Assembly: GCF_025847205.1 (NCBI RefSeq)
Contig: NZ_JAOYTH010000003.1
Span: forward strand, 310,001-374,000
Source: Pararhizobium sp. YC-54
GTDB taxonomy: Bacteria > Pseudomonadota > Alphaproteobacteria > Rhizobiales > Rhizobiaceae
Reading direction: 5' to 3'
DNA length: 64,000 nucleotides
Both the position numbers and the translations under genes were made by a program. Position 1 is the stretch's first letter. Each line of letters opens with the position of its first letter. This document shows, piece by piece, positions 9,117-22,950 of this stretch. Under the pieces are notes generated by a model. It searched no databases and had not been told where the DNA came from. It saw only the letters and a program-made list of their open reading frames with translations.

Positions 9117-9854
9117 TCAGGTTTCGATCTTCAGCTTGACGCGATCGGCGGCAAAGCGGGTCCGCGAAAATTGGACCGGCACACCCTCCGGGTCGGCATT
9201 GATGGCAGTCGCCTCGATGACGATGGCGCCGGGCGAAAGCCGGAGCAATGCCAGTTCGCCGGCATCGGCGTGGCGTGCGACAAGCTCTGTGGAGATGCGC
9301 ACATAATCCGCCAGACCCTGCGCTGCGAAGGCCTTTGTGATCGAGCGCAACCGTTCAAACTCTTCGGCCATGGCCGGAAACCGGCTTTGCGGGAAAAAGC
9401 TGGTGGAACAGGAAACGGGCCGCCCATCGGCACTGCTGACCAGATCGAGCTGGATGCAGAGGGCGCCGGGATCGATTTTCAATCCCTTTGCGACGTCGCC
9501 CGCAACCGGCACTGTCGCCTTGGCCAGCAGCCTTGCCTCTGTCTCGCGGGCCTGATCTCCAAGCCCCTGTGAAAACCGTGTACGCCGTGAAATCGGAAAA
9601 CTCAGCCGTTCCTTGCGCTGGATCATCGTGCCCCGGCCCTGGATCGCCTGGACCAGACCTTCATTCGCCAGCGCGGCCAGGGCGCTGCGCACCGTGTGGC
9701 GGTTGACACCGAATTGTCCGGCAAGCACGGTTTCCGGCGGCACCATGCCCGTTTGATCGTAGTCGCCATTGCTGATCGACAGCCGGATAAGATCAGCGAT
9801 CTGACGCCAGAGGGCGACGCCGGTTTGGCGCTCGACCGCTTTTTTCGCATTCAT
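9117..9854 (-). CDS. phnF: GntR/HutC-family phosphonate utilisation regulator PhnF
   Basis: 245 aa transcription factor expected to control the adjacent phn operon. The N-terminus (about residues 10-80) is a GntR winged helix-turn-helix, with VLAGQFGVNRHTVRSALAAL as the recognition region. The rest is a UTRA effector-binding domain, including the conserved PVSCSTSFFP segment. It is divergently transcribed from phnG across a 76-bp gap that holds an inverted-repeat operator candidate, the usual arrangement for autoregulation and control of phn genes. Confidence 0.9.
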   Translation of the reverse strand: MNAKKAVERQTGVALWRQIADLIRLSISNGDYDQTGMVPPETVLAGQFGVNRHTVRSALAALANEGLVQAIQGRGTMIQRKERLSFPISRRTRFSQGLGDQARETEARLLAKATVPVAGDVAKGLKIDPGALCIQLDLVSSADGRPVSCSTSFFPQSRFPAMAEEFERLRSITKAFAAQGLADYVRISTELVARHADAGELALLRLSPGAIVIEATAINADPEGVPVQFSRTRFAADRVKLKIET

Positions 9855-9930: not shown

Positions 9931-10407
9931 ATGGAAGCAATGGACGCGATCAAACAAAATACCGGCATGGCGATGAACGGGCGAAAGCGGGCGATGGGCC
10001 TGCTCGCGCGCGCTTCGACAGCTGAACTGCAGGCTGGCTGGCAGTCAATCGAGCCTAAGCCGGAGGTTCATCCGGTGCGCGGTCCGGAAACCGGCCTTGT
10101 CATGGTGCGCGGCCGCATCGGCGGTGGCGGCGACGCGTTCAATCTTGGAGAGGCGACGGTCAGCCGGGCAACGGTACGGCTCGGTTCCGGCGAAATCGGC
10201 CACGGCCAGCTGCTCGGCAACGACCGGGAGAAAGCACACCTCGCCGCCGTCTTCGATGCGCTTCACCAGCGGCCGGAGCATCGCTCCGTTGTCGATCAGC
10301 TGATCGGCGCGGTGGAAAGACGCATCCATGCCGAAGACCGCAAGCATGCCGAGCAGACCGCGGCGACACGGGTCGATTTCTTCACCATGGTCCGGGGAGA
10401 CAACTGA
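9931..10407 (+). CDS. phnG: Phosphonate C-P lyase system protein PhnG
   Basis: Subunit of the PhnGHIJ C-P lyase core complex; with PhnI, PhnH and PhnL it converts alkylphosphonate and ATP to ribose-1-phosphonate triphosphate. Up to 158 aa; MGLLARASTAELQAGW near the N-terminus and GLVMVRGRIGGGGDAFNLGEATVSRA are characteristic. The precise start is uncertain: ATGs at 9931, 9940 and 9967 are in frame and none has an ideal ribosome-binding site. The stop codon overlaps the phnH ATG by one base. Confidence 0.92.
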   Translation: MEAMDAIKQNTGMAMNGRKRAMGLLARASTAELQAGWQSIEPKPEVHPVRGPETGLVMVRGRIGGGGDAFNLGEATVSRATVRLGSGEIGHGQLLGNDREKAHLAAVFDALHQRPEHRSVVDQLIGAVERRIHAEDRKHAEQTAATRVDFFTMVRGDN

Positions 10408-11027
10408 TGGGCGCTCACACCGAAATCCACGCCAGCGCCTATGCCGGCGCTTTCACTGATCCCGTCTTTCAGTCGCAGTCGGTCTTCCGCGCGCTGATGG
10501 ATGCCATGGCCCGACCCGGCACGATCATGCCGCTCGGCGCTTCCGCAACGCCGCCAGCACCGCTCGGCGCCGGCGCCGGGGCGATCGCGCTCACCCTTTG
10601 CGACGACGGCACGCCCGTATGGCTGACGAACGCCCTCGTTCAGTCCTCCGTTCCCGCCTGGCTGTCCTTCCACACCGGCGCACCGGTGACGGAGATCAAG
10701 CCCGAGGCCCGTTTCGTTTTCATCGAGGCCGGCGGCATCGTCCCGGGTTTCGACCAGTTCGCGCTCGGGACACAGGAATATCCTGACCGCTCGGCCACAC
10801 TCGTGATCGAAATCGCTTCGCTGACCGGCGGGCCTGAATTTTTTGCAAGAGGTCCAGGCATCAAGGATGAAGCAATCATTTCGCCCAAAGGCCTGCCGGA
10901 TATTTTCCTGACGCTCTGGACGGAAAACCGGGGCCTGTTTCCCCGCGGTGTCGATCTGATCCTCGTTGCCGGCATGGATGTCCTGTGCCTGCCGCGCACC
11001 ACCAAGCTTCGCCGTCGGGAGGTCTGA
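10407..11027 (+). CDS. phnH: Phosphonate C-P lyase system protein PhnH
   Basis: 206 aa subunit of the C-P lyase core complex, related in fold to PLP transferases but without cofactor. Recognisable family sequence: FTDPVFQSQSVFRALMDAMARPG at the N-terminus and GPGIKDEAIISPKGLP in the centre, ending in RTTKLRRREV. The start overlaps phnG by one base (TGATG), and phnI begins 3 bp after its stop, so phnG-H-I are coupled. Confidence 0.94.
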   Translation: MGAHTEIHASAYAGAFTDPVFQSQSVFRALMDAMARPGTIMPLGASATPPAPLGAGAGAIALTLCDDGTPVWLTNALVQSSVPAWLSFHTGAPVTEIKPEARFVFIEAGGIVPGFDQFALGTQEYPDRSATLVIEIASLTGGPEFFARGPGIKDEAIISPKGLPDIFLTLWTENRGLFPRGVDLILVAGMDVLCLPRTTKLRRREV

Positions 11028-11030
11028 TCC

Positions 11031-12140
11031 ATGTATGTTGCTGTCAAGGGCGGCGAAGCCGCTATCGCCAATGCGCACCAGCTTCTCGCCGACCGCCGCC
11101 GCGGTGACCGGTCGTTGCCGGCCATCTCGATCGACCAGATCGTTGCCCAGCTCGGCCTGGCGGTCGATCGCGTCATGGCGGAAGCCTCGCTCTACGATCG
11201 TGAACTCGCAGCGCTTGCCGTGCGCCAGGCACGCGGCGATATGATCGAGGCGATCTTCATCCTGCGCGCCTATCGCACCACCCTGCCGCGTTTCGGCATG
11301 TCGGTGCCGGTGGACACCGCTGCCATGAAAATCGAGCGCCGCATTTCGGCAACCTACAAGGATCTTCCGGGCGGCCAGCTGCTCGGCCCGACATTCGACT
11401 ATACCCACCGCCTGCTCGACCCGTCGCTCCTGTCCGATGAGCCGGTTGCCGAGCCCACACGCCGGGCGGCGGACGAAAGCGCGATGATGCGGGTCTCCGA
11501 CATCCTCGCCGGCGAAGGCCTGATCGAGGGCGACGGCCAGATGCCGGAGGATCATGTGCCGGGCGACCTGACACGCGAGCCGCTGGAATTTCCGCTGAAC
11601 CGCGACCTGCGCCTGCAGGCCTTGGCGCGCGGCGACGAAGGTTTCCTTCTGGCGCTCGCCTATTCCACTCAGCGCGGCTATGCCCGCACCCATCCTTTCG
11701 TCGGTGAGGTTCGCATTGGCGAAGTCGACGTGGAACTCGATATTCCGGAACTCGGTTTTGCCGTGTCGCTCGGCCCGATCCAGGTGACCGAATGCCAGAT
11801 GGTCAACCAGTTCCAGGGTTCGACCAAGAACCCGCCGCAGTTCACCCGCGGTTACGGCCTCGTCTTCGGCCAGAGCGAACGCAAGGCAATGGCGATGTCG
11901 CTGGTCGATCGTGCCCTTCGCGCCGGGGAATTCGGCGAGGATATCGTCGCCCCGGCGCAGGACGAAGAATTCGTCATCTCGCATTCCGACAACGTTCAGG
12001 CGACCGGCTTCGTCGAGCACCTGAAGCTGCCGCACTATGTCGATTTCCAGGCCGAGCTCGATCTCGTTCGCCGCATGCGCGCCGAATACGACGCGAAGTC
12101 CGGCATCGACAAGGACGGGGCCCGGGAGGCAGCCGAATGA
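11031..12140 (+). CDS. phnI: Alpha-D-ribose 1-methylphosphonate 5-triphosphate synthase subunit PhnI
   Basis: 369 aa nucleosidase-like subunit that displaces adenine from ATP by phosphonate in the C-P lyase pathway. Family hallmarks: MYVAVKGGEAAI start, FILRAYRTTLPRFG, and the C-terminal half with QGSTKNPPQFTRGYGLVFGQSERKAMAMS and a histidine-containing SHSDNVQATGFVEHLKLPHYVDFQAEL segment. The stop overlaps the ATG of the following FosX-like gene (ATGA), so that gene is embedded in the core operon. Confidence 0.95.
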   Translation: MYVAVKGGEAAIANAHQLLADRRRGDRSLPAISIDQIVAQLGLAVDRVMAEASLYDRELAALAVRQARGDMIEAIFILRAYRTTLPRFGMSVPVDTAAMKIERRISATYKDLPGGQLLGPTFDYTHRLLDPSLLSDEPVAEPTRRAADESAMMRVSDILAGEGLIEGDGQMPEDHVPGDLTREPLEFPLNRDLRLQALARGDEGFLLALAYSTQRGYARTHPFVGEVRIGEVDVELDIPELGFAVSLGPIQVTECQMVNQFQGSTKNPPQFTRGYGLVFGQSERKAMAMSLVDRALRAGEFGEDIVAPAQDEEFVISHSDNVQATGFVEHLKLPHYVDFQAELDLVRRMRAEYDAKSGIDKDGAREAAE

Positions 12141-12556
12141 TCGAGGACCTCTCCCACATCACCTTCATCGTCAGCGATCTCGACCGGATGACGGACATTC
12201 TGGAAACAGTTTTCGGCGCCACGGAAGTCTATGCCAGCGGCGAAAAACCGTTCTCTCATTCGCCCGAGAAGTTTTTCACCATCGGCGACCTTTGGATCGC
12301 GATCATGCAGGGCAAGAGCCTGAGCGAGCGGACCTACAACCATGTCGCCTTCAAGATCCGCGACGAGGACGTCGATATCTATCTGGAGCGCATTCGTTCG
12401 CTCGGACTGGACGTGATGCCGCCAAGGCCACGTGTCGAAGGCGAGGGCCGGTCGATCTATTTCCACGACGCTGACAATCATCTGTTCGAGCTGCACACCG
12501 GCACGCTCGCCGAAAGGCTTGAAACATATTCCCGCTTGAAGGAGGCAGCCGAATGA
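12137..12556 (+). CDS. fosX: FosX-type fosfomycin epoxide hydrolase-like protein (vicinal oxygen chelate superfamily)
   Basis: 139 aa glyoxalase-fold protein. The expected FosX metal ligands are present at His7, His69 and Glu118, and Glu44, the residue that activates water in FosX hydrolases, is conserved. Other family sequence includes SERTYNHVAFKI and YFHDADNHLFELHTG. FosX adds water to the epoxide of fosfomycin, itself a phosphonate. The gene is coupled by ATGA overlaps to phnI upstream and phnJ downstream, so it belongs to the C-P lyase operon. A closely similar phn-operon FosX is known from Mesorhizobium loti, where fosfomycin activity is weak. The physiological substrate here may be another phosphonate; resistance is not shown by sequence. 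Confidence 0.85.
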   Translation: MIEDLSHITFIVSDLDRMTDILETVFGATEVYASGEKPFSHSPEKFFTIGDLWIAIMQGKSLSERTYNHVAFKIRDEDVDIYLERIRSLGLDVMPPRPRVEGEGRSIYFHDADNHLFELHTGTLAERLETYSRLKEAAE

Positions 12557-13431
12557 CTGACCTTGCCACATACAACTTCGCTTACCTCGATGAGCAGACC
12601 AAGCGGATGATCCGCCGGGCGATCCTCAAGGCGATTTCGATACCCGGCTATCAGGTTCCGTTCGCGTCGCGCGAAATGCCAATGCCCTACGGCTGGGGCA
12701 CCGGCGGCGTGCAGGTGACCGCTGCAATCCTCGGACCTGCCGACGTTCTGAAGGTGATCGACCAGGGTGCCGACGATACCACCAACGCCGTCTCCATCCG
12801 TGCCTTCTTCCAGAAGGTCGCCAATGTCGCGGTGACCACCAGGACCCGCGAGGCGACGATCATCCAGACGCGCCATCGCATTCCGGAGGAGACGCTGACG
12901 GCCGGCCAGACGCTGGTCTATCAGGTGCCGATCCCCGAACCCCTGCGCTTCCTCGAACCGCGCGAGACCGAAACCCGCAAGATGCATGCGCTGGAAGAAT
13001 ACGGCCTCATGCATGTGAAGCTCTACGAGGATATCGCCCGCAACGGCCACATCGCCACGACCTATGCTTATCCGGTCAAGGTCGAGGGCCGCTACGTCAT
13101 GGACCCCTCGCCGACGCCGAAGTTCGACAATCCGAAAATGCACATGTCGGAAGCGCTGCAGCTGTTCGGCGCCGGCCGCGAAAAGCGCATCTACGCGGTT
13201 CCCCCCCATACCGACGTCGTCAGCCTCGATTTCGAGGATCATCCGTTCGAGATCCAACATTTCGACAAGCCCTGCGCGCTTTGCGGAGCCGAGCATGTCT
13301 ATCTCGACGAGGTCGTTCTCGACGACAAGGGCGGCCGCATGTTCGTCTGTTCCGATACCGACCATTGCGAGGATCGCCGCGAACATGGCCACGCCGGCGA
13401 AATGCTGGCGCGGCAGGAGGCGGCGGAATGA
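12553..13431 (+). CDS. phnJ: Alpha-D-ribose 1-methylphosphonate 5-phosphate C-P lyase PhnJ
   Basis: Radical-SAM enzyme that breaks the carbon-phosphorus bond, releasing the alkane and 5-phosphoribosyl 1,2-cyclic phosphate. 292 aa. Counting from the ATG at 12553, cysteines fall at 241, 244, 266 and 272, the same positions as the iron-sulfur and catalytic cysteines of the Escherichia coli enzyme (segments CALCGAEHVY and CSDTDHCEDRR). Typical PhnJ sequence precedes them (FAYLDEQTKRMIRRA, MPMPYGWGTGGVQVT). Coupled to the FosX-like gene by ATGA. A palindromic repeat separates it from phnK. Confidence 0.97.
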   Translation: MTDLATYNFAYLDEQTKRMIRRAILKAISIPGYQVPFASREMPMPYGWGTGGVQVTAAILGPADVLKVIDQGADDTTNAVSIRAFFQKVANVAVTTRTREATIIQTRHRIPEETLTAGQTLVYQVPIPEPLRFLEPRETETRKMHALEEYGLMHVKLYEDIARNGHIATTYAYPVKVEGRYVMDPSPTPKFDNPKMHMSEALQLFGAGREKRIYAVPPHTDVVSLDFEDHPFEIQHFDKPCALCGAEHVYLDEVVLDDKGGRMFVCSDTDHCEDRREHGHAGEMLARQEAAE

Positions 13432-13684: not shown

Positions 13685-14461
13685 ATGACCGCCGTCCCGC
13701 TTCTCAAAGTCAACGATGTCTCGAAATTCTATGGCGGCCGCACCGGGTGCCGCAACGTTTCCTTCGAGCTCTGGCCAGGCGAAGTTCTCGCCATTGTCGG
13801 CGAATCCGGCTCCGGCAAGACGACGCTGCTCTCCTGTCTCTCCACCCGGCTGATGCCCAGTTCCGGCATTGTCGAATACCATATGCGCGACGGCCACTAC
13901 CGCGATCTTGCCCGTATGAGCGAGGCCGAGCGCCGCTTTCTGATGCGCACCGACTGGGGCTTCGTGCACCAGAACCCCGCCGATGGCCTGCGTATGACGG
14001 TTTCGGCCGGGGCCAATGTCGGCGAGCGGCTGATGGCGGTCGGCGACCGGCACTACGGCAATATCCGTGCGACGGCAGCCGACTGGCTGCGCCGCGTCGA
14101 GATCGAGGAAGACCGCATCGACGATCAGCCGCGCGCCTTTTCCGGCGGCATGCGCCAGCGCCTGCAGATCGCCCGCAATCTCGTCACCTCCCCGCGCCTG
14201 GTGTTCATGGACGAGCCGACCGGCGGTCTCGATGTCTCGGTTCAGGCCCGCCTGCTCGACCTGGTGCGCGGTCTCGTCCACGACCTTGGCCTCTCTGCCA
14301 TCATCGTCACGCACGACCTCGCCGTCGCCCGGCTTCTCTCACACCGCATGATGGTGATGAAGGATGGCTTGGTGATCGAGCAGGGTCTCACAGACCGGGT
14401 GCTCGACGATCCGCGCGAGCCCTACACCCAGCTTCTCGTTTCCTCGATTCTGCAGGTCTGA
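13685..14461 (+). CDS. phnK: Phosphonate C-P lyase system ATP-binding protein PhnK
   Basis: 258 aa ABC-type ATPase that docks on the PhnGHIJ core complex and is not a transporter subunit. It has Walker A GESGSGKTT (about residues 38-46), the Q-loop segment GFVHQNPADGLRMTVSAGANVGERLM, which is characteristic of PhnK, signature FSGGMRQR, and VFMDEPTGGLDVSVQ. It is separated from phnJ by the mosaic repeat and from phnL by a short palindrome. Confidence 0.95.
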   Translation: MTAVPLLKVNDVSKFYGGRTGCRNVSFELWPGEVLAIVGESGSGKTTLLSCLSTRLMPSSGIVEYHMRDGHYRDLARMSEAERRFLMRTDWGFVHQNPADGLRMTVSAGANVGERLMAVGDRHYGNIRATAADWLRRVEIEEDRIDDQPRAFSGGMRQRLQIARNLVTSPRLVFMDEPTGGLDVSVQARLLDLVRGLVHDLGLSAIIVTHDLAVARLLSHRMMVMKDGLVIEQGLTDRVLDDPREPYTQLLVSSILQV

Positions 14462-14525: not shown

Positions 14526-15233
14526 ATGGCCACTCCCCTCGTTGTTTCCGAAGTTGCCAAAAGCTTCACCATGCACCTGCGTGACGGTATCCGGTTGCCG
14601 GTCGTTTCCGGCGTGTCGTTCTCTGTCAGACAAGGCGAATGCGTCGTACTCGGCGGTCCGTCCGGCGTCGGCAAGAGCTCGATCCTGAAGATGCTCTACG
14701 GCAACTATGCCGTCGATGCCGGCCAGATCCTGATCGAACATCAGGGCCATCTGGTCGATCTCGCCCATGCAGCACCCCGCGCGGTGCTGGAAGTCCGACG
14801 CGATACGCTGGGTTATGTCAGCCAGTTCCTGCGCGTCGTTCCGCGCGTGCCGGCATTGGACGTCGTTGCCGAGCCGCTTCTGGCGCGTGGCGTGGCGCAG
14901 GACGAGGCACGCGAAAGGGCGTCCGAGCTTTTGGCAAAGCTCAACCTGCCGCACGAACTTTGGCAGTTGCCGCCAGCGACCTTCTCGGGCGGCGAGCAGC
15001 AGCGCGTCAACATCGCCCGCGGCTTCATCACCGACCATCCGATCCTTCTGCTCGACGAGCCGACGGCCTCGCTGGACGCGAAGAACCGCCGCGTCGTCGT
15101 CGAGATGATTGCCGCCAAGAAGTCTAAGGGCGTTGCGCTGCTCGGTATCTTCCACGACGAGGAAGTGCGCGATGCCGTTGCCGACCGCATCCTCGACGTC
15201 TCCGCTTTCTCGCCGCGAAAGGCTGCGGCATGA
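14526..15233 (+). CDS. phnL: Phosphonate C-P lyase system ATP-binding protein PhnL
   Basis: 235 aa ABC-type ATPase, an accessory of C-P lyase required with PhnGHI for nucleoside-phosphonate formation. It carries Walker [11 protein letters not shown], the PhnL-typical [24 protein letters not shown] region, signature [15 protein letters not shown] and [17 protein letters not shown] precedes the ATG. The stop overlaps the ATG of the hexapeptide-transferase gene (ATGA). Confidence 0.95.
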
Positions 15234-15847
15234 CGATCAAGCTGTCGGAAAGGCCGCTCATCCATGAGACGGCGCGGATCATCGATTGTACGATCGGCCG
15301 CTACACCGAAATCGCCGAGCGCTGCCGTATTTCTGAAACCGAAATCGGCGATTATTCCTACATCATGGAAGACGGCTCGGTCTGGTGCGCGACCATCGGC
15401 AAATTCGCCAATATCGCATCCTCGGTACGGATCAACGCCACCAACCATCCGGTCTGGCGGGCCACACTGCACCATTTTACTTACCGGGCTAAGGATTACT
15501 GGCCGGATGCGGATATGGACCAGGATTTCTTTGCCTGGCGCCGCGAAAACCGCGTCGTCATCGGCCATGATGTCTGGATCGGCCACGGGGCGACCGTGCT
15601 TCCCGGCGTCATCGTCGGCAATGGTGCCGTGATCGGTGCCGGCGCCGTCGTCTCCAGGGATGTGGCGCCCTATACCATCGTCGGCGGCGTTCCGGCAAAG
15701 CTGATCCGGGAGCGTTTCGGCAATGACATTGCCGGCCGCTTCGAGAAGCTGGCCTGGTGGAACTGGGACCACGGCAAGCTGCGCGATGCCCTGAACGACT
15801 TCAGGATGCTCGATGCGGATGCATTCCTTGCCCGACACAATGCCTGA
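15230..15847 (+). CDS. Phosphonate-locus hexapeptide-repeat acyltransferase
   Basis: 205 aa left-handed beta-helix transferase. Hexapeptide repeats run through [48 protein letters not shown] and [32 protein letters not shown], followed by [18 protein letters not shown], the usual xenobiotic/DapH-like ending. It belongs to the acyltransferase subgroup found only in C-P lyase operons. It is translationally coupled to phnL. No phnO is visible in the window, so it may N-acetylate aminoalkylphosphonates in its place; the substrate is unproved. Confidence 0.85.
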
Positions 15848-15927: not shown

Positions 15928-15989
15928 CAACCGCCGTTATGGCAAGGGGCATACCGATGACCGGTACCACTGCCAAAGGATGCGTCCCC

Positions 15990-16826
15990 ATGTTTCAACT
16001 GAAGAATGTAACTCGGCAGTTCGGCAAGAAGATCGCCGTCAACTCGGTTACCTTCGACATCCCGCAAGGCCAGATGGTCGGCATCATCGGCCGGTCGGGC
16101 GCGGGCAAATCGACGCTTCTGCGGATGATCAACCGTCTGAACGACGTATCGTCCGGCTCGATCCATTTCGGCGATCTCGAAGTGTCGTCGCTGCGCGGCG
16201 CCGCCCTTCGCAACTGGCAGCGCGATTGCGCCATGATCTTCCAGCAGTTCAATCTGGTGCCGCGTCTCGACGTGCTGACCAACGTGCTGCTGGGCCGTCT
16301 CAATCACCGCTCCACGGTTCTCAGCATCCTCAACATGTTCACCCGCGAAGAGCGGATCATGGCGATCGGCGCGCTCGAGCGGCTCGGCATCGAGCAGACC
16401 GCGCTGCAGCCGGCGGGTACCCTGTCCGGCGGTCAACAACAGCGCGTCGCCATCGCCCGCGCCCTGATGCAGCAGCCGAAGATGCTGCTTGCCGACGAGC
16501 CGATCGCTTCGCTCGATCCGTTGAACGCCAAGATCGTCATGGATGCGCTGCGCGACATCAACGAGCGGGACGGCATTACCGTCGTCACCAACCTTCACAC
16601 GCTGGATACGGCGCGCAATTACTGCGAGCGCATCATCGGCATGGCACATGGCCAGGTCGTTTTCGACGGCCAGCCGCGCGAATTGACGGCAGCAGCCGTC
16701 GCCGAAATCTACGGCTCGGGCGCGGAACTCGATGAATCGATGACGTCGACCAGCATCAGTATTCCTGCCGCGCAGGACAACACGAAATCCGCCGGCGTCA
16801 AGCCGCTGGCACTGGCCGGGATTTAA
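15990..16826 (+). CDS. phnC: Phosphonate ABC transporter ATP-binding protein PhnC
   Basis: ATPase of the phosphonate (and in rhizobia also phosphate) importer, 278 aa. It has Walker [10 protein letters not shown], the PhnC-typical [23 protein letters not shown], signature [15 protein letters not shown] and [12 protein letters not shown]. The ATG at 15990 is chosen because AAAGGA lies 9 bp upstream and the protein then starts [12 protein letters not shown] like its relatives; in-frame starts at 15939 and 15957 are less likely. First gene of the Pho-box-controlled importer operon phnC-D-E1-E2. Confidence 0.94.
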
Positions 16827-16916
16827 CCGGCCTGCGGGATCGACAGCCCGCGTCAAGGGCAGACCATTGCAACCGAATGTGAACCGGCGCCGCCGGGATA
16901 ACAGGAGAAGACCCTT

Positions 16917-17822
16917 ATGTTGAAGAAAGCACTCTTAAGCGCCGTTGCGCTCTTTGCCCTCGTCGGCCACGTTCAGGCTGAAGACCTCAAGGAATTCCGC
17001 GTCGGCATCATCGGTGGCGAAAACGAAGCCGACCGCCTGCGCAACTACCAGTGCCTCGGCGATCACCTGAAGTCGGCACTGAATGTCGAAAAGGTTTCCT
17101 TCTTCCCGGCCGCCGACTATGACGGCGTTATCCAGGGTCTGCTCGGCGGCACGCTCGACTATGCAGAGCTCGGCGCTTCCGGGTATGCCAAGATCTTCCT
17201 CGCCAAGGCTGACGCCGTCGAGCCGATCCTGACGACCGAACAGTCCGACGGTTCGACCGGCTACTATTCGATCATGGTTGCCCGCAAGGACAAGGGCTAT
17301 GCCAGCGTTGCCGACCTGAAGGGCAAGAAGCTCGGCTTCGCCGATCCGGATTCGACGTCGGGCTACCTCATTCCGAACGTCACCCTGCCGGAAACGATCG
17401 GCATGCCGGTCAAGGAATTCTTCGCTGAAACCGGTTTCGGCGGCGGTCACGAAAACCTCGTTCTCGAAGTGCTCAAGGGCACCTTCGATGCCGGCACGAC
17501 CTTCGGTTCGGGTATTGGCGAGTTCAAGGACGGCTACACGTCCGGCAACCTGCACAAGATGGTCGAGAAGGGCGTTCTGGATATGAATGACCTGGTCGAA
17601 CTGTGGCGCTCGCCGCTGATCCCGAACGGCCCGATCGTCGTCCGCACCTCGTTGAACGACGACATGAAGGCGAAGTTCAAGCAGTTCATGCTCGACCTGC
17701 CGAAGACCGATGCAGCCTGCTTTGCCGGCGTCATGGGCGGCGACTTCAAGGGCTTCGTCGAGGTCAACTCCGACTTCTACAAGCCAATCATCGACGCCCG
17801 CAAGTCGACGATCGGCGGCTGA
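16917..17822 (+). CDS. phnD: Phosphonate ABC transporter substrate-binding protein PhnD
   Basis: Periplasmic binding protein of 301 aa. Signal peptide MLKKALLSAVALFALVGHVQA, cleaved about residue 21. The mature protein has PhnD-family sequence: FRVGIIGGENEADRLRNYQCL, FFPAADYDGVIQGLLGGTLDYAELGASGYA, and the DLKGKKLGFADPDSTSGYLIP segment that lines the phosphonate pocket. AGGAGA precedes the ATG. A hairpin after the gene may keep its mRNA in excess over the permease genes. Confidence 0.94.
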   Translation: MLKKALLSAVALFALVGHVQAEDLKEFRVGIIGGENEADRLRNYQCLGDHLKSALNVEKVSFFPAADYDGVIQGLLGGTLDYAELGASGYAKIFLAKADAVEPILTTEQSDGSTGYYSIMVARKDKGYASVADLKGKKLGFADPDSTSGYLIPNVTLPETIGMPVKEFFAETGFGGGHENLVLEVLKGTFDAGTTFGSGIGEFKDGYTSGNLHKMVEKGVLDMNDLVELWRSPLIPNGPIVVRTSLNDDMKAKFKQFMLDLPKTDAACFAGVMGGDFKGFVEVNSDFYKPIIDARKSTIGG

Positions 17823-17839
17823 TCCCGTCTGAATTCAAG

Positions 17840-17875
17840 CGCTGGCCGGCCATCCCGGCCAGCGTTTCCTTGTTT
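17840..17875 (+). terminator. Hairpin/partial terminator after phnD
   Basis: CGCTGGCCGG, five-base loop, CCGGCCAGCG, then TTTCCTTGTTT. A strong stem with an interrupted T tract between the binding-protein gene and phnE1 would give partial termination or 3'-end protection of phnD mRNA. Confidence 0.6.
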
Positions 17876-17929
17876 AAGCAGTCTCGGGGCATGATGCTCA
17901 GCGAGGCCTCGTGTTTTGCCGGAGACTTC

Positions 17930-18892
17930 ATGGCCGCGTCAGCGCTTTCCACAACCTTGAGCGACAATGGCGCCGTGGTCGAACGCCACTGGCAGGAGCT
18001 TAATCTCCGCCGCCGCATCTACACCTTCCTTGGTCTCGCGCTGCTGGCGGTGGCCCTGTCCGGATCGCTCTGGTTCGCCAACGCGACCAATGCCGGCAAA
18101 TTTTTCGACCGCCTGCCCTATTTCTTCGATTTCGTCGGCGATCTGGTGCCGCGCGACGCCGCCGAGATCGGCCGGGCAATGTTCGACCTGCCCTCGCCCT
18201 ATGACGACGGCAGCCTGAAGTACAATTATCCCGAAGGCCGAATGTATCTGACGGACAGCATCTATGTTCCCGAATATTTCTACAAGATGCTGGAAACGCT
18301 CAACATCGCCATCTTCTCCACCATCTTCGGCATGTTCTTCGGCTTCATTCTCTGTTTCTTTGCCGCGCGCAACCTGATGCCCAATCCGTGGGTTCGCGGT
18401 TTAGTGCGGCGCATCATGGAAATTCTGCGGGCTTTTCCGGAAGTGGTGATCGCGGGCTTTTTCCTCGCAATCCTTTCCTTGGGGGCGATCCCGGCGATAA
18501 TCGCCGTTTCGATCCATACGGTCGGGGCGCTCGGAAAACTGTTCTTCGAGGTTGTCGAAAATGCCGACATGAAGCCGGATGAGGGTCTTCGGGCCGCCGG
18601 CGGCAACTGGTTCGAGCGGGTCTGGTTCGGCATCGTGCCGCAGGTTCTGCCGAACTTCATGAGCTATTTCCTTTTGCGTCTCGAAATCAACGTGCGTGCC
18701 TCGACCATCATCGGCGCGGTCGGTGGTGGCGGTATCGGCGAGCCGCTACGGCTGTCGATCAGCCAGGGTCATGAGGCCAAAACGCTGGCGATCATCATCC
18801 TGTTGTTCTCGACGATCATTGCCGTCGATCAGTTCTCCGCATGGCTGCGCCGCCGCCTCGTCGGCGATCAGGCCTTCCAGCTCGCGCAATAG
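17930..18892 (+). CDS. phnE: Phosphonate ABC transporter permease PhnE (first copy)
   Basis: Membrane subunit of the phosphonate importer, 320 aa. GGAG five bases upstream supports the ATG at 17930; longer in-frame versions overlap phnD and are rejected. One helix (about residues 35-55) is followed by a periplasmic segment of roughly 90 residues with YDDGSLKYNYPEGRMYLTDSIYVPEYF, then the transport core with FCFFAARN-like sequence, EGLRAAGGNWFERVWFGIVPQ as the ATPase-contact loop, and RASTIIGAVGGGGIGEPL. It partners with the second permease gene 9 bp downstream. Confidence 0.92.
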   Translation: MAASALSTTLSDNGAVVERHWQELNLRRRIYTFLGLALLAVALSGSLWFANATNAGKFFDRLPYFFDFVGDLVPRDAAEIGRAMFDLPSPYDDGSLKYNYPEGRMYLTDSIYVPEYFYKMLETLNIAIFSTIFGMFFGFILCFFAARNLMPNPWVRGLVRRIMEILRAFPEVVIAGFFLAILSLGAIPAIIAVSIHTVGALGKLFFEVVENADMKPDEGLRAAGGNWFERVWFGIVPQVLPNFMSYFLLRLEINVRASTIIGAVGGGGIGEPLRLSISQGHEAKTLAIIILLFSTIIAVDQFSAWLRRRLVGDQAFQLAQ

Positions 18893-18901
18893 GAGCGGAC
18901 C

Positions 18902-20410
18902 ATGACCGCAAACACGATGATGAACACTGCACAGATGGAAGCGATCGCTGCCCGCCACCCGCACCTGCTCAAGAGTTCGACCAGCAAGCGCATCCGATCC
19001 GTCCTGATCTTTGCTGGCATCGCCCTCTACATGATCTACAGCTGGTGGTTTTTCTCAATCGGCCAGGTTCTGGTCAACGCCAACTGGGGCATTGCCGGCA
19101 CCTATCTGGCCGACTGGGTGTCCTACGAGGTCCGCCCCGACATCAAGATCGCCAACGATGGCACGATGCAGGTTGTTTACCCGCGTTACTCGCCGCTCGG
19201 TCCCGATGCCAAGCCGGAATGGGTCAAGATCGAGACGAAGATGGTGGACCGTACCATCGATGTCCCGGCCGTGGCACAGCAGGCCGCTCCGAAAAAGAGC
19301 TCAAGCTTCAGCTTCATGGCGCCGAATTCTGCTGTCGGCAGCAGTGCCGGGGCGGGTGCCCGCACGGAAACCCGGACCGAGGAAGTTGTCAGCCGCGCGA
19401 CGGTCAATTTCAATGCCACGACCAGCATTGATGTCGCCAGCGGTACGGTCACCGCCACGCATGCCGGAGAATCCCTGCTGATCGATCTCGATCATTCCAC
19501 CGGCGTCACGCCGCAAGGCGCCTTGCCGGAATGGGCGACGCAGAAGCGCCCGGGCGAAAAGATCACGCTTGCCTTCGGCATGACCGGCTGGGCCGATGTC
19601 GACAAGGAAAAGATCAGCATCCATAACCGCTTTCCCGGCTGGGCCAATTTCATCTTCGACACCAACTCACCGTTCTTCAACAGGTCCTTCGGCGAAGTGG
19701 CGAGCCTGATTATCAGCGGCGAGCGTCTCGATCCCGGCCGCTCCAACCTGTCGCTCGCCTGGAACAACATCCTTTACAATTCCGAATGGCAGCATCTCGA
19801 CGTCTGGACCAAGCTGCTGCAGACCATCGTCATGGCCTTTGTCGGCACGCTGTTTGCCTCGATCATCGCCTTCCCGCTCTGCTTCCTTGCCGCGCGCAAC
19901 ATCACCCGCAACGGTCTGCTCAATCAGGTGACCAAGCGGTTCTTCGACTTCCTGCGGTCCGTCGACATGCTGATCTGGGCGCTGTTCTTCACCCGCGCCT
20001 TCGGGCCTGGCCCGCTTGCCGGCATGTCGGCGATCTTCTTCACCGATACCGGCACGCTCGGAAAGCTCTATTCCGAGGCGCTGGAAAACATCGACGACAA
20101 GCAACGCGAGGGCGTCAAATCGGTCGGCGCCGCGCCCCTTGCCGTGCAGCGTTTCGGCATCCTGCCGCAGGTGCTGCCGGTCTTTGCCAGCCAGGCGCTG
20201 TATTTCTGGGAATCCAATACACGATCAGCGACCATCATCGGCGCTGTCGGCGCTGGCGGCATCGGTCTGAAGCTCTGGGAAGCGATGCGGACGAATTCCG
20301 ATTGGGAAAACGTCTGCTATATGGTTATCCTCATCCTCATCGTCGTGTTCATCTTCGACAGCATTTCCAATCTGCTGCGCTCGCGTCTCATGGGCCAGAA
20401 AACACACTGA
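18902..20410 (+). CDS. phnE: Phosphonate ABC transporter permease PhnE (second copy, with large periplasmic insert)
   Basis: 502 aa, far longer than the usual 260-300 aa PhnE. After a cytoplasmic N-terminus and one helix (about residues 33-57), residues about 58-300 form a soluble, presumably periplasmic, domain. It includes a low-complexity SSSFSFMAPNSAVGSSAGAGA stretch and several beta-rich segments. The C-terminal 200 residues are a standard permease core: TIVMAFVGTLFASIIAFPLCFLAARN, REGVKSVGAAPLAVQRFGILPQVLP and RSATIIGAVGAGGIG. AGGAG precedes the ATG. It corresponds in place and type to PhoT of the Sinorhizobium phoCDET importer. Confidence 0.9.
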   Translation: MTANTMMNTAQMEAIAARHPHLLKSSTSKRIRSVLIFAGIALYMIYSWWFFSIGQVLVNANWGIAGTYLADWVSYEVRPDIKIANDGTMQVVYPRYSPLGPDAKPEWVKIETKMVDRTIDVPAVAQQAAPKKSSSFSFMAPNSAVGSSAGAGARTETRTEEVVSRATVNFNATTSIDVASGTVTATHAGESLLIDLDHSTGVTPQGALPEWATQKRPGEKITLAFGMTGWADVDKEKISIHNRFPGWANFIFDTNSPFFNRSFGEVASLIISGERLDPGRSNLSLAWNNILYNSEWQHLDVWTKLLQTIVMAFVGTLFASIIAFPLCFLAARNITRNGLLNQVTKRFFDFLRSVDMLIWALFFTRAFGPGPLAGMSAIFFTDTGTLGKLYSEALENIDDKQREGVKSVGAAPLAVQRFGILPQVLPVFASQALYFWESNTRSATIIGAVGAGGIGLKLWEAMRTNSDWENVCYMVILILIVVFIFDSISNLLRSRLMGQKTH

Positions 20411-20526: not shown

Positions 20527-21234
20527 GTGCGCTACGCATTCTATATCTCGCCTGATGAAGACGATCCGCTGAGCGCCGCTGCGGCGCGCTGGCTGGGTGC
20601 GAACCCGTTCACCGGCGAAAGCCGGGACCTTGAGCCCGCGGGCGATTTCGGCGCTGCCGAGCTGACCGCCTTGACCGCCGATCCGCGCCGCTACGGTTTT
20701 CACGGGACGCTGAAGGCTCCCTTCTCGCTTGCGCCGGGCAAAACCGAGGCCCAGCTCCTGGATGATTTCGACGCGTTTTCTGAAGAATGTATACCGTTCG
20801 AGATTCCGGAAATGACACTTGGTCAGCTCGGGCCGTTCTTTGCGCTGGTACCGGCGGACGATTGTCCCGAACTACAGGACTTCGCCGACGAAACGGTGCG
20901 GCGGTTCTCCCCGTTCCGGGCAGCGCTGTCTGAGGCCGATATCGCCCGCCGCAAGCCTGAAACCCTCGGCGATGTGATGCGAAACAACCTGCTTAAATGG
21001 GGATACCCTTACGTTTTCGAGAGTTTCCGGTTCCATATGACGCTGACCGGCCCGGTGCCGGTGGATCGTCAGCCCGCGATGAAGGCCCTGCTGGAGCAGC
21101 GCTTTGCGCCCTTCATTGGCAAACCTCTTGGCGTCACCTCGCTTGCGCTGTTTACCGAACCAGCGCGCGGGACGCCTTTTACAGTTCACTCGCTTTTGCC
21201 GCTCGGCGGCACGTCCAAACGAAAGATGGCATGA
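20527..21234 (+). CDS. DUF1045 phosphonate-locus protein with 2H phosphoesterase motifs
   Basis: 235 aa, read from a GTG start (MRYAFYISPDEDDPL). Two HxT motifs are visible: His59-Gly-Thr61 in YGFHGTLKAPF and His170-Met-Thr172 in FRFHMTLTGP. That spacing is the signature of the 2H phosphoesterase superfamily, which opens cyclic phosphates or RNA 2',3'-cyclic ends. The family is found in C-P lyase loci and is annotated only as a putative phosphonate metabolism protein. No PhnP-type cyclic phosphodiesterase is present in this window, so this protein is the best candidate for hydrolysing 5-phosphoribosyl 1,2-cyclic phosphate released by PhnJ. It is followed one base later by phnM. Confidence 0.85.
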   Translation: MRYAFYISPDEDDPLSAAAARWLGANPFTGESRDLEPAGDFGAAELTALTADPRRYGFHGTLKAPFSLAPGKTEAQLLDDFDAFSEECIPFEIPEMTLGQLGPFFALVPADDCPELQDFADETVRRFSPFRAALSEADIARRKPETLGDVMRNNLLKWGYPYVFESFRFHMTLTGPVPVDRQPAMKALLEQRFAPFIGKPLGVTSLALFTEPARGTPFTVHSLLPLGGTSKRKMA

Positions 21235-21235
21235 C

Positions 21236-22375
21236 ATGACCGTTGAAACCGTTCTCTCCAACGCCCGTATCGTCCTTGAGGACCAGATTCTCAACGGCTC
21301 GGTGCTGATCCGCGACGGCAAGATTGCCGACATCTCGGAAGGCGTGAGCCATACCGGTGAGGATTTCGAAGGCGATTACCTGATCCCCGGCCTGGTCGAA
21401 TTGCACACCGATCATCTGGAAGCCCATTATTCGCCCCGCCCCGGCGTTCGCTGGCTGAAAATGGCGGCGATCCAGGCGCACGATGCGCAGGTCGTCACAT
21501 CGGGCATCACCACCGTCTTCGACTGCCTCAGGATGGGTTCCGACGAGGACGGCGGCTTCGAGCAGGGCGAGATGCGCGATATGGCGGACGCTCTGGCGCA
21601 GGCAGCAAAGGAAAATCGCCTGCGCGCCGATCATCGCATCCATCTGCGCTGCGAAGTCTCGACCGACAACGTGCTGGCGCATTTCGAGGAATTCGAGAAC
21701 GACCCGCAGGTCGGCCTCGTCTCGCTGATGGACCATGCACCGGGCCAGCGCCAGTTCCAGACGATGGACCAGTACACGCTCTACCACAAGAACAAGCGCG
21801 GCCTTTCGGACGAAGCCTTCGCCGCGTTCTGCGCCCGGCAACAGGCGCTTTCGGCCCGGTATGCCGGTCCGCATCGCATCGAAATCGCCAAGGCCTGCGC
21901 CGAGCGTGGCATCACCATTGCCAGCCATGACGACGCCACGTTGGCCCATGTCGAGGAATCGGTCGGCTTCGGCATTCGCCTTGCGGAATTCCCGACCAGC
22001 TTCGAGGCGGCTGAAGCCTCGCATGCGGCCGGTTTGAGCGTGCTCATGGGTGCGCCCAATATCGTGCGCGGCAAATCGCACTCCGGCAACATCGCCGCGC
22101 GCGACCTGGCCGAACGAGGCGTTCTGGATGTTCTTTCGTCGGATTATGTTCCGTTCAGCCTCATCCACGCGCCCTTCGTTCTCTCGGACGAGCTGGAAAG
22201 CGTCAGCCTGCCGAAGGCGCTCGCAATGGTCACCGCAACCCCTGCCCGCACGGTGGGACTGGATGATCGCGGCCGGATCGCCACGGGTCTGCGTGCCGAT
22301 ATCGTGCGTGTCCAGCGCCGCGAAGGCATTCCGGTGGTTCGCTCCGTCTGGCGCGAAGGAAAGCGGGTCGCCTGA
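21236..22375 (+). CDS. phnM: Alpha-D-ribose 1-methylphosphonate 5-triphosphate diphosphatase PhnM
   Basis: 379 aa amidohydrolase-superfamily enzyme that removes pyrophosphate from ribose-1-phosphonate 5-triphosphate before PhnJ acts. The metal-binding HTDHLE motif lies near residue 59. Further family sequence: TTVFDCLRMG, SLMDHAPGQRQFQ, ASHDDATLAHVEES, MGAPNIVRGKSHSGN and LSSDYVPFSL. The ATG at 21236 gives the MTVETVLSNARIVLEDQIL start usual for PhnM; it lies immediately after the DUF1045 stop. The TGATG overlap with phnN shows coupling. Confidence 0.95.
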   Translation: MTVETVLSNARIVLEDQILNGSVLIRDGKIADISEGVSHTGEDFEGDYLIPGLVELHTDHLEAHYSPRPGVRWLKMAAIQAHDAQVVTSGITTVFDCLRMGSDEDGGFEQGEMRDMADALAQAAKENRLRADHRIHLRCEVSTDNVLAHFEEFENDPQVGLVSLMDHAPGQRQFQTMDQYTLYHKNKRGLSDEAFAAFCARQQALSARYAGPHRIEIAKACAERGITIASHDDATLAHVEESVGFGIRLAEFPTSFEAAEASHAAGLSVLMGAPNIVRGKSHSGNIAARDLAERGVLDVLSSDYVPFSLIHAPFVLSDELESVSLPKALAMVTATPARTVGLDDRGRIATGLRADIVRVQRREGIPVVRSVWREGKRVA

Positions 22376-22950
22376 TGCACGGGCAAGGTCAAACGGGCGC
22401 GATCATCGTCGTGGTCGGCCCCAGCGGCGCCGGCAAGGACAGCGTCATCGGCTTCGTGGCGCGGCACTTTGCCGGGCGTGAGGATATCGATTTCGTCCGC
22501 CGCGTCATCACCCGCCCGTCCGATGCCGGCGGCGAGGACCACGAGAGCATTTCCGGCGAGGTCTTCGATAGCCGCCTGTCAGCCGGTGATTTCGCCGTTG
22601 CCTGGCAGGCGCACGGGCTGAAATACGCAATCCCCAGAGACGCGCTGGAAAAGGTGCGGGCCGGCAGGATCCTGATTGCCAATGGCAGCCGTGCGGTGCT
22701 CGGCCAGTTCCGGCAGGCCTTTCCAAGGGTCGCGATCGTCAACATCACGGCGTCGCCGCAGGTGCTGGCCAGCCGGCTGGTTGCGCGCGGTCGCGAGAGC
22801 GAGCAGGATATTCTCAACAGGCTCAAGCGGCAGGTGCCTGATATTTTCGACGAGCCCGATGTAACGACAATCGACAATAGTGGGCCACTTGAGATTGCGG
22901 GATCGAGATTTGCAGCGCTTGTCACTGAGTTGCAAAGTTTTGCCAACTGA
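22375..22950 (+). CDS. phnN: Ribose 1,5-bisphosphate phosphokinase PhnN
   Basis: 191 aa kinase that phosphorylates ribose 1,5-bisphosphate to PRPP, closing the C-P lyase pathway into nucleotide synthesis. P-loop GPSGAGKDS near residue 15, then FVRRVITRPSDAGGEDHESIS and the guanylate-kinase-like DFAVAWQAHGLKYAIP. Its start overlaps the phnM stop by one base. Last gene of the phosphonate block; the next gene is on the opposite strand and ends 3 bp beyond the phnN stop. Confidence 0.93.
   Translation: MHGQGQTGAIIVVVGPSGAGKDSVIGFVARHFAGREDIDFVRRVITRPSDAGGEDHESISGEVFDSRLSAGDFAVAWQAHGLKYAIPRDALEKVRAGRILIANGSRAVLGQFRQAFPRVAIVNITASPQVLASRLVARGRESEQDILNRLKRQVPDIFDEPDVTTIDNSGPLEIAGSRFAALVTELQSFAN

Follow-up and report, generated by a model that had tools for sequence, protein, structure and literature searches.

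The phn locus and its DUF1045 protein

The window, i.e. the whole stretch of 64,000 nucleotides from the soil bacterium Pararhizobium sp. YC-54 analysed in this study, carries a carbon-phosphorus (C-P) lyase locus in which the gene of a DUF1045 protein lies directly before phnM. A preliminary description, made from the sequence alone, had proposed this protein to be a two-histidine (2H) type cyclic phosphodiesterase in place of PhnP, no gene for which was visible in the locus. Replacement of PhnP by DUF1045, also named 'RcsF', is an already published proposal and is made firmer here. New points of this analysis are a paralog in a urate operon, a DUF1045-phnM-phnN trio in genomes devoid of PhnJ and a calcineurin-like exception. 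The gene and its motif codons are located as follows.

20527..21234, + strand: DUF1045 / TIGR03223 ('RcsF') 2H-fold protein, 235 amino acids, GTG start, assigned from profiles and predicted fold
20701..20709, + strand: first HxT codons, His59-Gly60-Thr61, kept in 77/77 distinct phn-linked copies
21034..21042, + strand: second HxT codons, His170-Met171-Thr172, kept in 77/77 distinct phn-linked copies

The open reading frame comprises 235 codons from its GTG start with no internal stop, and a regular-expression scan for H-x-[TS] found exactly two matches in its product, His59-Gly-Thr61 and His170-Met-Thr172. The ATG of phnM is at 21236, one base past the DUF1045 stop codon. Frame, motif scan and phnM start thus confirm the GTG-started protein of 235 amino acids with two HxT motifs directly before phnM. 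A simple consensus scan revealed no + strand promoter in the gap before the gene.

In Pfam the protein matches PF06299 (DUF1045; E 2.5e-57, 193.8 bits versus a cut-off of 24.3). Its sole NCBIfam match is TIGR03223, 'putative phosphonate metabolism protein' (260.6 bits versus 248.95), and it is not a member of the PhnP profile TIGR03307, which represents a metallo-beta-lactamase fold. The Pfam models PF02834 and PF13563 do not match the window protein itself; five flagged relatives exceed the cut-offs of one or the other. Since a PDB sequence search with the single protein or with a 65-row profile returned nothing credible, a fold comparison was needed. From the predicted model and this comparison a two-lobed 2H fold was assigned, and the nearest folds to the model are enzymes acting on RNA ends or cyclic nucleotides. 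The Arabidopsis cyclic phosphodiesterase (PDB 1fsi/1jh6) shares 12% identity with DUF1045, and its substrate carries adenosine diphosphate instead of the 5-phosphate. Bacillus subtilis YjcG and Escherichia coli LigT show 16-18% identity to the window protein; to our knowledge neither is linked to phn genes.

Motif conservation was counted in 181 distinct DUF1045 sequences, after removal of frames shorter than 170 amino acids and of near-duplicates (same first 200 residues) and without loci gathered later. The HxT pair was intact in 77/77 phn-linked copies, in 14/16 copies without a phn or urate gene in view and in 13/88 urate-linked copies; Arg131 was present in all 181. Its invariance in the phn-linked copies argues that the pair is not due to chance. 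At one locus near a contig end (L263, G564:C28), where the downstream neighbours are cut off, both motif histidines of the DUF1045 copy are replaced.

The remaining genes of the locus are listed below.

9117..9854, - strand: phnF, GntR-type regulator (TIGR02325, 279.3 bits)
9931..10407, + strand: phnG (PF06754, TIGR03293)
10407..11027, + strand: phnH (PF05845, TIGR03292)
11031..12140, + strand: phnI (PF05861)
12137-12556, + strand: FosX/FosE/FosI-family hydrolase (NF000222, 209.8 bits versus a cut-off of 170)
12553..13431, + strand: phnJ, C-P lyase, which makes the proposed substrate (PF06007, 492.1 bits)
13685..14461, + strand: phnK (TIGR02323, 409 bits)
14526..15233, + strand: phnL (TIGR02324, 344 bits)
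15230..15847, + strand: phn-linked hexapeptide-repeat transferase, phn_thr-fam (TIGR03308, 320 bits)
15939-20410: phnC, phnD and two phnE-like frames, assigned from frames only
21236..22375, + strand: phnM (NF011983, 655.8 bits; TIGR02318, 515.2 bits)
22375..22950, + strand: phnN, ribose 1,5-bisphosphokinase, for which the proposed reaction would supply the substrate (TIGR02322, 216.4 bits versus a cut-off of 156)

Each of phnF, G, H, I, J, K, L, phn_thr-fam, M and N was identified by profile, in agreement with the preliminary description of a locus complete from phnG to phnN. PhnJ has a single match in the source genome. In this locus, which is of environmental origin, phnI and phnJ are separated by a Fos-type hydrolase frame.

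The lack of phnP extends beyond the window, as no PhnP over the TIGR03307 cut-off of 272.25 was found in the whole source genome (6.24 Mb, 54 contigs, 99.78% complete). The best scores were 25.8 and 22.5 bits. These two faint matches fit an RNase Z-like family (141.7 bits) and another metallo-beta-lactamase family (221.7 bits), in both cases under the models' own cut-offs, better than PhnP (27 and 36), and a hidden PhnP was thereby rejected.

Distribution of DUF1045 and PhnP

Three partly overlapping genome samples were examined: 192 alphaproteobacteria (class sample), 299 Pseudomonadota (phylum sample) and 166 Rhizobiaceae; Fisher tests on all three take no account of phylogeny. According to the preliminary description, mutual exclusion of DUF1045 and PhnP among phnJ genomes would favour a replacement and frequent co-occurrence would speak against it. 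The exclusion was clean. PhnJ was present in 69/299 genomes of the phylum sample, 53 of them with DUF1045, 16 with PhnP, none with both and none with neither; excluded were a PhnJ remnant in G223, which is interrupted by stops and scores 18.9 bits, below the cut-off, and partial DUF1045 matches of 37.8 bits in G355 and 30.1 bits in G407, both of which nevertheless exceed the Pfam value of 24.3. The 16 PhnP score 296-433 bits and lie 3-4 kb from PhnJ, the next-best match scoring 108. Among the 230 genomes without PhnJ, DUF1045 occurred in seven and PhnP over the cut-off in none. Outside the alphaproteobacteria, PhnP was found in 16 and DUF1045 in four of 20 PhnJ genomes. In these four, which belong to two families, DUF1045 carries both HxT motifs and lies beside phnN inside the phn cluster, and there is no PhnP over the cut-off.

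Within the class sample, PhnJ was found in 34/192 genomes and DUF1045 in 33/34 with PhnJ versus 10/158 without, these ten including a match below the cut-off in G098 (19.3 bits) and a partial one in G025 (47.5 bits). DUF1045 lies at most 9 kb from PhnJ in 27/34, and PhnP over the cut-off was found in none of the 192 genomes. Among the Rhizobiaceae, all 115 genomes with PhnJ (of 166) have DUF1045, as do 17/51 without it. The role foreseen for this family in rhizobial phosphonate breakdown is therefore supported, but its scope is wider, covering nearly all sampled alphaproteobacteria with C-P lyase and 4/20 PhnJ genomes outside the class.

Weaker PhnP-like matches (50-102 bits, E <= 1e-12) were found in 122/192 alphaproteobacteria, i.e. 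in 29/34 with and 93/158 without PhnJ. All stay under the PhnP cut-off and more than 30 kb from PhnJ (the nearest at 32 kb), and at this threshold there is none in the source genome. Counting every weak TIGR03307 match as PhnP was rejected, since such proteins occur irrespective of PhnJ, and only matches over the cut-off were counted.

Two side observations concern PhnJ. Fragmented DUF1045 matches lie beside two extra PhnJ copies in G345 (C103:104374-117931), as if these extra phn clusters were decaying. Moreover, a lower-scoring PhnJ type (377-397 bits versus 453-507 for other full-length matches) occurs as an extra copy in G018:C1, G252:C1, G345:C103, G455:C3, G503:C19 and G529:C7 and as the sole PhnJ in G491:C1 and G536:C8.

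In 39/53 genomes of the phylum sample, DUF1045 is within 15 kb of PhnJ. Where a phn gene was in view (79 loci, some overlapping the same copy and, by construction, none with a lone copy), phnM or phnN was the nearest of the queried phn genes in 76. As a rule, though with exceptions, DUF1045 accompanies either the step preceding the lyase or the kinase following it. The preliminary placing in the position of phnP, before phnM, is true in the window, but in 14/53 genomes DUF1045 is more than 15 kb from PhnJ or on another contig, in some without an adjoining phn gene. The distant copies of six Rhizobiaceae (G234, G238, G300, G334, G397, G448) lie beside phnM and phnN; those of G091, G269, G331 and G408 lie beside further genes of phn type, e.g. 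a phnM-like gene of 34-42% identity, the transferase or phnC/phnD. DUF1045 stands alone in G417, G436, G438 and G442 (views of 4.7 to 8.6 kb), with phnM and phnN in the PhnJ cluster, and in G116 and G152 of the class sample, where the PhnJ cluster holds phnM and, in G116, phnN too. Ten frames flanking the phn clusters of these last six genomes (a part of all frames) were scanned with Pfam and contained no metallo-beta-lactamase, PHP or calcineurin-like domain; three had no match, and the others encode regulators, enzymes of metabolism, a protein with DUF427 and, in G116, one with an HD domain. An obvious local substitute enzyme was thus not seen, except for this HD domain. A common partner for the DUF1045 copies without a phn gene in view was likewise sought, and no family was shared among ten neighbours at six loci (Pfam).

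DUF1045 without PhnJ and the urate-operon paralog

Seventeen Rhizobiaceae genomes have DUF1045 but no PhnJ. At the 16 sites read (all except that of G469), DUF1045 is accompanied by phnM and phnN in 13 (L269, L271, L272, L274-L277, L279-L284), by phnM only, by phnN only and by neither in one each. These PhnJ-less trios could be left over from a core since lost, or could form a unit serving a purpose of its own, e.g. remaking phosphoribosyl pyrophosphate (PRPP) from ribosyl 1,2-cyclic phosphate. This cyclic phosphate may arise from PRPP breakdown, an idea for which no published source was found in the literature searched.

The source genome encodes a second DUF1045 protein (G000:C18, locus L006:9607-10407, - strand) with 47% identity to the phn copy and a TIGR03223 score of 256.6 versus the cut-off of 248.95. 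It heads the run DUF1045-puuE-uraD-allA-hiuH. A scan of named genomes with this paralog gave 544 loci, of which the best 80, picked by closeness to the paralog, were kept; puuE or uraD lies within the 6-kb flank in 80/80, and 79/80 are titled rhizobia or Rhizobiales. The exception (L209) is on a contig titled as an Arenimonas metagenome-assembled genome with the rhizobial urate-operon arrangement, perhaps misbinned. In 95/95 urate loci, some overlapping, puuE is on the same strand as DUF1045 at a median gap of 91 bases. Linkage of DUF1045 to urate operons was not found in the literature searched, which leaves most subscription papers outside.

A tree was built from 110 sequences, of which 70 were not urate-linked and 40 were taken from the 84 urate-linked ones; its bootstrap had not settled. 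In this tree the urate-linked copies form one clade (100/99; present in all 200 bootstrap trees examined), placed in an unresolved fork with phnM-phnN-linked Rhizobiaceae copies and two phn-linked copies from another family. His59 is kept in 87/88 and His170 in 88/88 urate-linked copies, Thr61 is replaced by V or M in 48/88 and Thr172 by M, P or K in 68/88. Loss of HxT, raised in the preliminary description as evidence against the proposal, is thus absent from the 77 phn-linked copies, but 75/88 urate-linked copies lack one or both motif Thr/Ser. The median ratio of nonsynonymous to synonymous substitution rates (dN/dS) was 0.26 for urate-linked DUF1045 versus 0.13 for puuE (60 pairs with dS 0.1-1.2, many near saturation), which points to purifying selection on the paralog. 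Threonine loss together with continued selection suggests a changed function, and a DUF1045 match alone does not mark a PhnP-like function, given that most copies of the urate paralog lack one or both motif threonines.

One PhnJ-less genome (G467, L269) carries DUF1045-phnM-phnN-puuE-uraD-allA-hiuH in a single run. This suggests that the urate linkage arose by loss of phnM and phnN from between, the run being a likely intermediate. On this view the linkage could be an accident of position. More tentatively, and in our view rather doubtful, DUF1045, PhnM and PhnN could be a free-standing salvage unit for ribosyl cyclic phosphate to which the C-P lyase core was joined. A Rhizobiaceae copy would then have been left heading the urate operon, keeping both histidines and Arg131 but, in most copies, not one or both of the threonines that hold the phosphate; it would now act on something other than a cyclic phosphate, as a part of purine catabolism.

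Proposed reaction and its alternatives

The window DUF1045 protein is very probably a metal-independent 2H-type cyclic phosphodiesterase that replaces PhnP. The basis was observed here: its family, the predicted 2H fold, motif conservation (77/77), the lack of PhnP, the exclusive distribution (53/16/0/0) and the frequent adjacency to phnM or phnN, all of which support the proposal of the preliminary description. The identity of the substrate, the way in which its ring opens, the lack of a need for metal and the roles of individual residues are inferred. PhnJ would cut the C-P bond and yield 5-phospho-alpha-D-ribosyl 1,2-cyclic phosphate, which would be bound in the cleft between the two DUF1045 lobes. 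The roles of general base and acid would fall to His59 and His170, and that of holding the phosphate to Thr61 and Thr172. Water would open the 2-O-P bond, giving ribose 1,5-bisphosphate, which PhnN, encoded two genes downstream of DUF1045, would convert to PRPP. PhnP has the same proposed reaction and place in the pathway but an unrelated fold, and it never occurs together with DUF1045 in the phylum sample. PhnP is metal-dependent, whereas 2H enzymes are not known to need a metal. The PhnPP-type phosphodiesterase of C-P lyase clusters, an unrelated enzyme of the PHP family with another fold, acts on the same intermediate and is reported to remove both ester bonds.

The proposal is found in several publications. 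A 2023 review (PMC10574752), citing the 2009 paper on the structure of PhnP, gives a SEED survey in which 27 of 54 operons have phnP and 16 without it have rcsF, and it suggests the PhnP role for the latter. Martinez 2013 considered that the 2H 'RcsF' likely plays this role and reported that a fosmid without phnP allowed E. coli lacking phnHIJKLMNOP to grow on methylphosphonate (PMC3840354). Hove-Jensen 2014, as cited in PMC8235418, takes DUF1045, located beside phnM, for a putative phosphoribosyl cyclic phosphodiesterase with two histidines. The wording 'perhaps analogous to phnP' is repeated in PMC5649143, and a proteome table for phosphate stress includes a DUF1045 protein along with PhnI, J, L and M (PMC10132767). 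Since a database protein named 'Protein RcsF' (P0215) carries PF06299, 'RcsF' and DUF1045 are one family. The window does not depart from the published case, with the same family and proposal, beside phn genes in a phnP-less cluster; the counts here are larger (69 PhnJ genomes versus 54 operons), and fold and motif tests are added.

Several points weigh against this reading. No assay of DUF1045/RcsF activity was found in the literature searched, most subscription papers lying outside that search, and the fosmid of the growth test carried many other genes. DUF1045 occurs without PhnJ in 10/158, 7/230 and 17/51 genomes of the three samples. In the phylum sample all 49 alphaproteobacterial PhnJ genomes have DUF1045 and PhnP is found solely outside the class; the split follows phylogeny, and independent switches are therefore few. 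Neither enzyme accompanies PhnJ in one alphaproteobacterium of the class sample, G135, which is unique in this respect among the genomes of the class and phylum samples. The gene immediately upstream of its phnG encodes a calcineurin-like phosphoesterase (PF00149, E 2.5e-10; L165:5161-6015, + strand), a candidate third stand-in. In the six genomes with a lone DUF1045 (G417, G436, G438, G442, G116, G152; L289-L294 and L299-L304), the phn cluster has a phnM of its own, in five also a phnN, and this only DUF1045 copy, being located elsewhere, would have to act from afar; the HD-domain protein adjoining phnM in G116 is a possible alternative hydrolase.

These six genomes, together with the PhnP-like proteins of 50-102 bits in 29/34 alphaproteobacteria with PhnJ and 93/158 others, speak for a reading in which DUF1045 serves the cluster in some other way and the cyclic phosphate is opened by a hydrolase encoded apart from it, such as a housekeeping metallo-beta-lactamase. 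We regard this as improbable: the candidates score under the PhnP cut-off, lie more than 30 kb from PhnJ, are common without PhnJ and are absent at that threshold from the source genome, the ten flanking frames lack metallo-beta-lactamase, PHP and calcineurin-like domains, though one has an HD domain, and the mutual exclusion of DUF1045 and PhnP would be left unexplained. Exclusion by lineage, alphaproteobacteria having inherited DUF1045 and other classes PhnP without functional equivalence, agrees with DUF1045 in 49/49 alphaproteobacterial PhnJ genomes and with the position of 16/16 PhnP genomes outside the class. It is very unlikely in view of the four non-alphaproteobacterial genomes with an in-cluster DUF1045 beside phnN, both HxT motifs and no PhnP over the cut-off, and of the tracking of PhnJ within the class (33/34 versus 10/158). 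Least credible is a general RNA or nucleotide 2',3'-cyclic phosphodiesterase (LigT/CPDase-like) merely near phn genes. In its favour, the enzymes nearest in fold have RNA ends or cyclic nucleotides as substrates, and 17 Rhizobiaceae genomes have DUF1045 without PhnJ, yet DUF1045 presence tracks PhnJ, and phnM and/or phnN adjoin it in 15/16 of the PhnJ-less sites read.

At its present cut-off TIGR03223 merges two groups, the phn-linked proteins and the urate-operon paralog. The clean partition of DUF1045 and PhnP makes the long-standing annotation gap behind its name, 'putative phosphonate metabolism protein', directly testable with one purified protein. If PhnP is replaced by DUF1045, surveys that judge pathway completeness by phnP would overlook the alphaproteobacteria with C-P lyase. 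These bacteria, among them nitrogen-fixing rhizobia and marine Rhodobacterales releasing methane from methylphosphonate, would then open the cyclic phosphate with an enzyme different from that of E. coli.
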